Part shown: positions 11,528 to 12,231 of the stretch, piece by piece
How positions within the stretch are numbered: the stretch's first letter is position 1
Layout: each line of letters begins with the position of its first letter
Source: Fibrobacter succinogenes
GTDB taxonomy: Bacteria > Fibrobacterota > Fibrobacteria > Fibrobacterales > Fibrobacteraceae
DNA: 40,675 nucleotides
Direction of reading: 5' to 3'
Assembly (NCBI GenBank): GCA_902762305.1
Contig: CACWNW010000030.1
Span: 1 to 40,675, forward strand
Translations under genes and position numbers: made by a program
The notes under the pieces: generated by a model
Told to the model about the DNA's origin: nothing
The model's input: the letters and a program-made list of their open reading frames with translations, nothing else
The model's database searches: none

Positions 11528-11588
11528 GAAAAAAATGTGTCAAAATTGGGCGTAAAACTTATGTAACAAAAATCCTGGGCCTTAAATG

Positions 11589-12085
11589 ACGGCCTTTATG
11601 GCCGGGCGTTCGCCCTCCGAGAGCTGACCGTACGGCTGAATAAATGAATTAACAAATCCTCAAAATGACGAACAAATGGTAGACCTTGAACCTGAAAATA
11701 CACGACAATGACAGTCTTGCCGCCCCCAAAATGCTGAACAGGCGGTATCACCGTGAGCCCTGAGCGGCCTGTATTGACGGGCCGTGAGGGCGAGAGCGAG
11801 TGAGAAACCGGCGGTCTTGACACCCGAAACGCCGAACGAGCGGCCTCCTCGTGAGCAACAAAGCCCCTAGTATTAACTAGGGGCGGTTGCGAGAGTGAGC
11901 GCATACCGGAGTTATTTAATACCCCAAACGAAGCGCGAACGGTATCACCGTGAGCCGAGAACGGTCGGTATTAACCGGCCGTGAAGGCGAGAGTGCGTGA
12001 GTTACCGGAGGTTCTGTCCCTGAAACGTCGAACGCACGGTCTAAAAAAGGACCTTCGCTGGGAGTATCAGCGAAGGTCCGAGGGA
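11589..12085. repeat. Tandem array of ~98-nt hairpin units (candidate structured RNA)
   Basis: Three well-conserved units begin with GTGAGC at 11753, 11851 and 11950 (periods 98 and 99 nt). Each holds a hairpin with loop TATTRA: GGCCTG/CGGGCC (11766-11783), CCCCTAG/CTAGGGG (11864-11883), GGTCGG/CCGGCC (11963-11980). The stem sequences differ but still pair. Each hairpin is followed by GCGAGAGYG, then ACCGG. GGTATCACCGTGAGC is shared by units 1 and 3. A fourth hairpin with a perfect 12-bp stem lies at 12049-12079. Degenerate upstream remnants include hairpins GGCC/GGCC (11591-11603) and GGGCG/CGCCC (11604-11615). An open frame at 11596-11904 on the minus strand is only this array read as protein. 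The strand of any transcript is unknown. Confidence 0.8.
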
Positions 12086-12094
12086 TGGGATTGG

Positions 12095-12231
12095 GTGTTC
12101 CCTAAAATTAGACAATTTTTTCGCAAAAGGGTATAGTTTTTTAACAAAAAGTGTTCCCTAAGTGTTCTTTTTTGCTTTTTTCTTGAAAAATTCGTGATTT
12201 TTTGCAAATTTTCAAAAACAGGGGTGTTCCC
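12095..12231. promoter_or_regulatory. Three GTGTTCCC boxes upstream of the TIGR02147 gene
   Basis: GTGTTCCC occurs at 12095-12102, 12151-12158 and 12224-12231, with a fourth partial GTGTTC at 12162-12167, all in an otherwise AT-rich spacer. An inverted repeat TTGAAAAATT / AAATTTTCAA lies at 12183-12213, between the second and third boxes. The last box is 31 nt from the start codon. Such spacing suits operator sites, perhaps for the helix-turn-helix-like protein encoded next; that link is inference. Confidence 0.5.

Follow-up and report, generated by a model that had tools for sequence, protein, structure and literature searches.

The window, which is the whole 40,675-nucleotide stretch of Fibrobacter succinogenes contig CACWNW010000030.1 that was analysed, carries an array of three intact units (11753–12041) and some decayed copies of a dispersed, Fibrobacter-specific repeat. 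The + strand of the array is built to fold into two helices, P1 and P2, a property that is compatible with either RNA or single-stranded DNA. This 97-base folded repeat family is apparently previously undescribed, as no report of a comparable Fibrobacter repeat was found in the open-licence literature searched. The repeat is probably, though by no means certainly, a short non-autonomous mobile element, similar to REP and BOX elements but without a REP transposase, and not a regulator of the gene that it adjoins. For a bacterium that is central to cellulose degradation in the rumen, it is a major repeat family, useful for assembly, annotation and strain typing.

All three units are read on the + strand. 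Each begins with the motif GTGAGC, which recurs at 11753, 11851 and 11950 (spacings of 98 and 99 nt), and ends with a short repeat, R, so that unit 1 occupies positions 11753–11847, unit 2 11851–11946 and unit 3 11950–12041. A unit of ~97 nt consists of the P1 hairpin (35–36 nt), GAGAG, the 5' arm of P2, ACCGG, a variable linker and R (15–17 nt, consensus CGNCGAACGAGCGGTC). The P1 hairpins lie at 11757–11791, 11855–11890 and 11954–11988, and that of unit 1 has an outer stem GCCCT/AGGGC and an inner stem GCGGCCTG/CGGGCCGT. The three R repeats are found at the junction of units 1 and 2 (11831–11847, GCCGAACGAGCGGCCTC), at the junction of units 2 and 3 (11930–11946, GAAGCGCGAACGGTATC) and at the 3' end of the array (12027–12041, GTCGAACGCACGGTC). 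An earlier sequence-only reading of this DNA had recognised the GTGAGC spacing, the TATTGA or TATTAA loops on stems that differ between units and still pair, and the conserved GCGAGAGYG and ACCGG motifs, all of which are present; P2 and the dispersed copies had escaped it. None of 200 dinucleotide shuffles folds as well as units 1 and 2 (z of −3.9 and −4.3, respectively), and the signal of unit 3 is weak (z of −1.6).

The same reading had traced degenerate remnants back to position 11589, which is correct in part. Two degraded R-like pieces, both on the + strand and both recognised by eye, support the presence of decayed units: one at 11659–11684 (CTCAAAATGACGAACAAATGGTAGAC, resembling CCCNAAACGNCGAACGAGCGGT), which belongs to an older unit and where a congener locus (L248) has decayed copies at the same place, and one at 11723–11749 (CCCCCAAAATGCTGAACAGGCGGTATC), immediately 5' of unit 1. 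The inverted repeats at 11589–11615 show nothing of the unit sequence, and their folding does not exceed that of shuffled sequence (z of −1.25).

P2 is formed by the segment that follows P1 and the 16-nt R that closes the same unit. In unit 1, the 5' arm CGAGTGAG (11797–11804, +) pairs with CGAACGAG in 11831–11847 via tandem G-A pairs, and the pairing covaries. In unit 2, TGAGCGC (11896–11902, +) pairs with GCGCGAA in 11930–11946. In unit 3, the partner of TGCGTGAG (11994–12001, +) is CGAACGCA in 12027–12041, and Watson-Crick pairs replace one G-A set. The R at 11930–11946 lies between two P2 arms, those of units 2 and 3, and fits the former only; P2 thus uses the R at the 3' end of its own unit. 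The P2 types include CGAGUGAG/CGAACGAG, which contains two tandem G-A sets, UGAGCGC/GCGCGAA and CAUGCGA/UGAGCAUG, with UGCGUGAG/CGAACGCA in unit 3 of the window.

To evaluate covariation, 126 copies, taken from the own genome (that of the assembly carrying the window) and from congeners, were aligned by MAFFT with no structural information and set against a tree-based null simulated in 40 replicates with our own R-scape-like implementation. Sixteen column pairs are significant at E < 0.05. Fifteen of them fall on base pairs of P1 or P2 or directly beside such pairs, and the remaining one (43–50) couples two positions within P1; the shuffled and slid controls give the same picture. Both helices therefore display base-pair covariation above phylogeny, a feature expected of functional structured RNAs. 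A helix proposed by RNAalifold (15–17/61–63) and built into the covariance model R1 is wrong: model position 58 covaries with position 99 and not with 14 (mutual information in 77 copies of the own genome). Because this helix was rejected, its G-U counts were excluded from the strand evidence. An ACCG/CGGT pairing shows weak covariation and is sterically exclusive with P2.

The exchange of tandem G-A mismatches with Watson-Crick pairs in P2 identifies the + strand as the one that folds, since the minus strand would have C-T mismatches at these positions. For 105 of 127 copies, the + strand also has the more stable predicted fold. Compensatory change in the stems had earlier been taken as a sign of selection on RNA or single-stranded DNA structure. 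The strand-specific single-strand structure stands by virtue of the exchange in P2; selection on RNA does not follow from the inner stem of P1, which template switching could maintain.

R1, trained on 17 copies of the own genome, where further places had first been found by blastn, matches the three units of the window at 11739–11851 (103.2 bits), 11837–11950 (98.7 bits) and 11936–12047 (106.5 bits). The own genome yields 102 R1 matches at E ≤ 1, and for ~95 of these E is below 1e-4. They comprise 58 singles, 10 pairs, five triples and two larger groups, with four and five members, i.e. arrays of 1–5 units, and the tandem spacing is mostly 93–99 nt. All 37 genomes of the genus Fibrobacter that were searched contain R1 matches (2 to 62 per genome among the matches listed), and none of the 24 genomes outside the genus does (61 genomes searched in all). 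An exact-pattern scan of ~85,000 species genomes returned matches only in records named Fibrobacter, and the same kind of scan of viral contigs returned none. In an Rfam search of the window, only a tRNA matches. The suggestion of a new repeat family with covarying hairpins is thereby borne out.

The copies are extragenic (only two of 67 arrays are inside a called ORF; genes for these position counts were called with a simple, crude hexamer script) and are placed with respect to the 3' ends of genes. Where an array has a downstream gene on the element's + strand (64 cases), that gene has the opposite orientation in 53, and the start of 26 of 67 arrays is no more than a few nucleotides away from the stop codon of the downstream gene. 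When the reverse strand is read, a stop codon is located 0–7 nt upstream (nearly always ≤4 nt) in 19 of 59 arrays of the own genome and in 34 of 55 congener arrays, compared to 2–4% for random or shifted positions; the congener count is biased towards stop codons, as ~10 of these 55 arrays were fetched through the EF-P gene or argG. Docking at the T-tract of a terminator is seen in nine of 59 own and three of 55 congener arrays (1–3% in controls). The adjoining genes are ordinary ones, which we take from their sequences to be those for EF-P, ArgG, PolA, TrpS, GlmM, transketolase and others; for EF-P, this identity is confirmed by Pfam. A replication-strand bias is not visible in the GC skew of the loci. 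How insertion achieves such precise docking at stop codons and terminators is a question that can be tested.

Occupancy of the same site differs between congeners. Behind argG, the own genome and loci L164 and L175 carry the element, L170 has a variant of it and L176 a solo R, and L162 and most others lack it; ArgG of the own genome and that of L162 are reported as 100% identical. The EF-P locus occurs in full, R-only and empty states. At the locus of the window, too, occupancy differs, and decayed copies are present. Among the empty-site pairs compared, none is clean with an exact insertion boundary. These differences could also be explained by loss.

Other dispersed repeats are also found between a stop codon and its terminator: repeats of the TGTCATCCTGGAGCGCGTAGCGCGATAGGATCC type occupy this position behind the EF-P gene at L192, L212, L215 and L218. 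Another dispersed repeat (CCACCTAAAGGTGGCCATGT...AAGTGTCCAAAG) is inserted within element copies at L175, L251, L207 and C8:36996 of the own genome. In or beside the copies at L117 (C2:240.7k) and L132 (C9:69.8k) lies a palindromic insert (GTACAGCAGAAACAAG...CTTGTTTCTATTGTTGAGGCGCC). A composite of two divergent copies recurs at L122 (C4:18967–19290), L143 (C16:7883–8205) and L097. Its C4 and C16 versions are 93% identical, and each lies within a few kb of a PDDEXK_2 gene. The PDDEXK_2 genes, of which there are eight copies, are near these two composite element pairs and not near most element copies.

A family of structured, strand-specific units that dock at gene 3' ends, differ in occupancy between congeners and decay in places is what a mobile element of the kind favoured here could leave behind. 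What we infer is that copies are moved in trans, that the folded strand is recognised and that arrays form through R. A trans-acting enzyme would recognise the folded single strand (single-stranded DNA or possibly RNA), and insertion would fall at gene 3' ends, behind stop codons or terminator T-tracts, where harm is least. Recombination or slippage between R repeats would then give rise to tandem arrays, R-flanked single copies and solo R scars; old copies would decay in place, and hairpins could be exchanged between copies. A non-autonomous element of the IS200/IS605 type would have a single-strand hairpin recognised by a Y1 transposase and would insert 3' of a fixed short target with no target duplication; what is observed here is a strand-specific fold and docking at stop codons or T-tracts. 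No mobilising enzyme was found: the sole Y1-type transposase of the own assembly looks like plain IS200, and no element copy lies within the 2.7 kb fetched around its PF01797 (IS200 TnpA-like) gene. What also counts against a mobile element is that exact docking at the stop codon exceeds the precision needed for gene avoidance alone.

Two known systems resemble this architecture. BOX elements of Streptococcus pneumoniae are modular, structured intergenic repeats with hairpin modules (boxA-boxB-boxC) that are presumed to be mobilised in trans. By this general description, the Fibrobacter repeat shares their modularity, intergenic location and hairpins and differs in the organisation of its modules. 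Integron attC sites combine variable stems with a conserved folded architecture, fold strand-specifically and form tandem arrays, as does the repeat; unlike attC sites as generally known, its units have no gene cassettes between them, and the conserved core boxes were not seen by eye.

The rival that fares best concerns the inner stem of P1, where compensation may be a mutational artefact, produced by quasi-palindrome template switching or by exchange of whole hairpins in the absence of selection on folding. Hairpins can both arise and be kept up through template switching (PMC8794818). The eight inner-stem pairs are Watson-Crick in 548 of 601 cells in the own genome and in 545 of 560 in congeners, and their identity changes freely, swaps between C-G, G-C and A-U being common. 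Despite this, G-U pairs are as rare as A-C mismatches (14 and 18, respectively, in ~1,160 cells). An inner stem almost devoid of G-U, with no excess of G-U over A-C, makes template-switch copying a live rival to RNA selection at this site. Copies whose bodies are 88–93% identical already differ in 34% of the inner pairs, and near-identical bodies with different stems are found both in tandem neighbours (L156:4501 and L156:4845) and in the EF-P copies of L192 and L203. The inner-stem pattern thus fits template-switch correction or hairpin exchange between copies at least as well as RNA selection. The artefact leaves unexplained, however, the excess of G-U over A-C at the base of the inner stem (64 vs 3) and the whole of P2, where G-A and Watson-Crick pairs exchange between arms ~30 nt apart. 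As an account of the inner stem, it is a serious possibility, if the less probable one, and it is not exclusive of a mobile element. A single molecule here contrasts a stem possibly kept by template switching with a helix of exchangeable G-A and Watson-Crick pairs, which bears on how covariation is read as evidence of RNA function.

It is rather unlikely that the repeat is a structured regulatory RNA with helices kept by RNA selection. Such an RNA would either influence translation or the decay of the mRNA from the upstream gene's 3' UTR, much as REPs do, or work as a + strand antisense or trans-acting RNA. The strand-specific structure, the conserved tandem G-A pairs and the compensatory changes would suit such a function, as would the copies directly behind stop codons: according to PMC12306157, which cites its reference 17 on this point, E. 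coli REPs located <16 nt from a stop codon lower translation. Against this, the best-folding strand is antisense to the adjoining gene, and the orientation of the upstream gene relative to the + strand is unbiased (same in 38 cases, opposite in 29). Moreover, many copies are found behind the terminator, outside the mRNA, no promoter on the + strand was detected ahead of the array in a promoter scan, and copies decay and come and go between close congeners.

A bolder version of the mobile-element reading, in which the repeat would be a new kind of element with a folded strand (single-stranded DNA or RNA) and exchangeable G-A/Watson-Crick helices, docked at gene 3' ends by non-RAYT machinery, possibly via joining to RNA 3' ends followed by reverse transcription, is quite improbable.

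Membership in the GTAG-tagged REP/RAYT or the CGTC-tagged REP families is very improbable indeed: the repeat is high-copy, extragenic, palindromic and near stop codons, but it fails on the tag, because P1 is flanked by GTGA, GTAA or ATAA on its 5' side and by GAGAG on its 3' side in the aligned copies, with neither a GTAG at its end nor the CGTC that defines the latter family at the end of an 8–9 bp hairpin, its unit is 97 nt long as opposed to 20–40 nt, and no RAYT gene was found in the own genome (95% complete), where the one PF01797 match is plain IS200 TnpA-like. The likeness to REP/BIME/REPIN systems with RAYTs extends to high-copy intergenic palindromes in clusters, many of them near stop codons, to compensated stem changes and to a strand-specific imperfect hairpin. 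The Fibrobacter repeat differs from these systems in its two helices, its 16-nt terminal direct repeat, its head-to-tail arrays and its restriction to Fibrobacter. CGTC-tagged REPs are likewise short palindromic repeats without a dedicated transposase, but they are shorter and their clusters are rare, whereas tandem arrays are common here (PMC3733652).

On its 3' side, the array is bordered by a 12-bp terminator-like hairpin with a T-tract (12049–12079, minus strand), directly after which the array starts on that strand. It had been described as a fourth hairpin of the array; the 12 bp are real, and the hairpin is a separate feature outside the repeat, not a fourth unit. A permissive Rfam search of 11560–12120 gave three sub-threshold matches, the best (E of 0.07) on this hairpin. 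Together with a nearly invariant flank, GAGGGATGGGATTGGGTGTTCC (12080–12101; 25 congener loci), the hairpin is found at 25 of 30 fetched congener loci, whether the array is present or absent, and its 13 distinct sequences in congeners all fold. The pair stands upstream of a TIGR02147 gene with the array at L248, L250 and L251, with a decayed array at L249, and with no array at L252, L255, L264, L266 and L270; it is because the hairpin is kept in both situations that it is regarded as a separate conserved feature. Perhaps it is the terminator of a small minus-strand RNA. Read on the minus strand, 12049–12101 is a candidate small RNA: a short C-rich segment leads into an intrinsic terminator. 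At L253, L254 and L256–L261, a different tandem repeat family (AACACAAATGCGTAAGGCGAGAGTCGCGG...) occupies the array site beside the conserved hairpin.

A link between the array and the downstream TIGR02147 gene, which had been considered possible, is not seen. The own genome has 34 TIGR02147 genes, and ~7 arrays lie within 3.5 kb of one of them, as against ~5 expected from the densities (positions compared by eye). Congeners keep the upstream region without the array, and other copies of the repeat adjoin housekeeping genes. Four of the 34 paralogs are found in a row at C14:108262–118305 of the own genome, with element arrays in between. In the window, the TIGR02147 gene is preceded by copies of GTGTTC(CC) at 12095, 12151, 12162 and 12224, around a promoter-like TAGACA-17-TATAGT (12109–12137). 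They are possible operators, and similar repeats are present in congeners.
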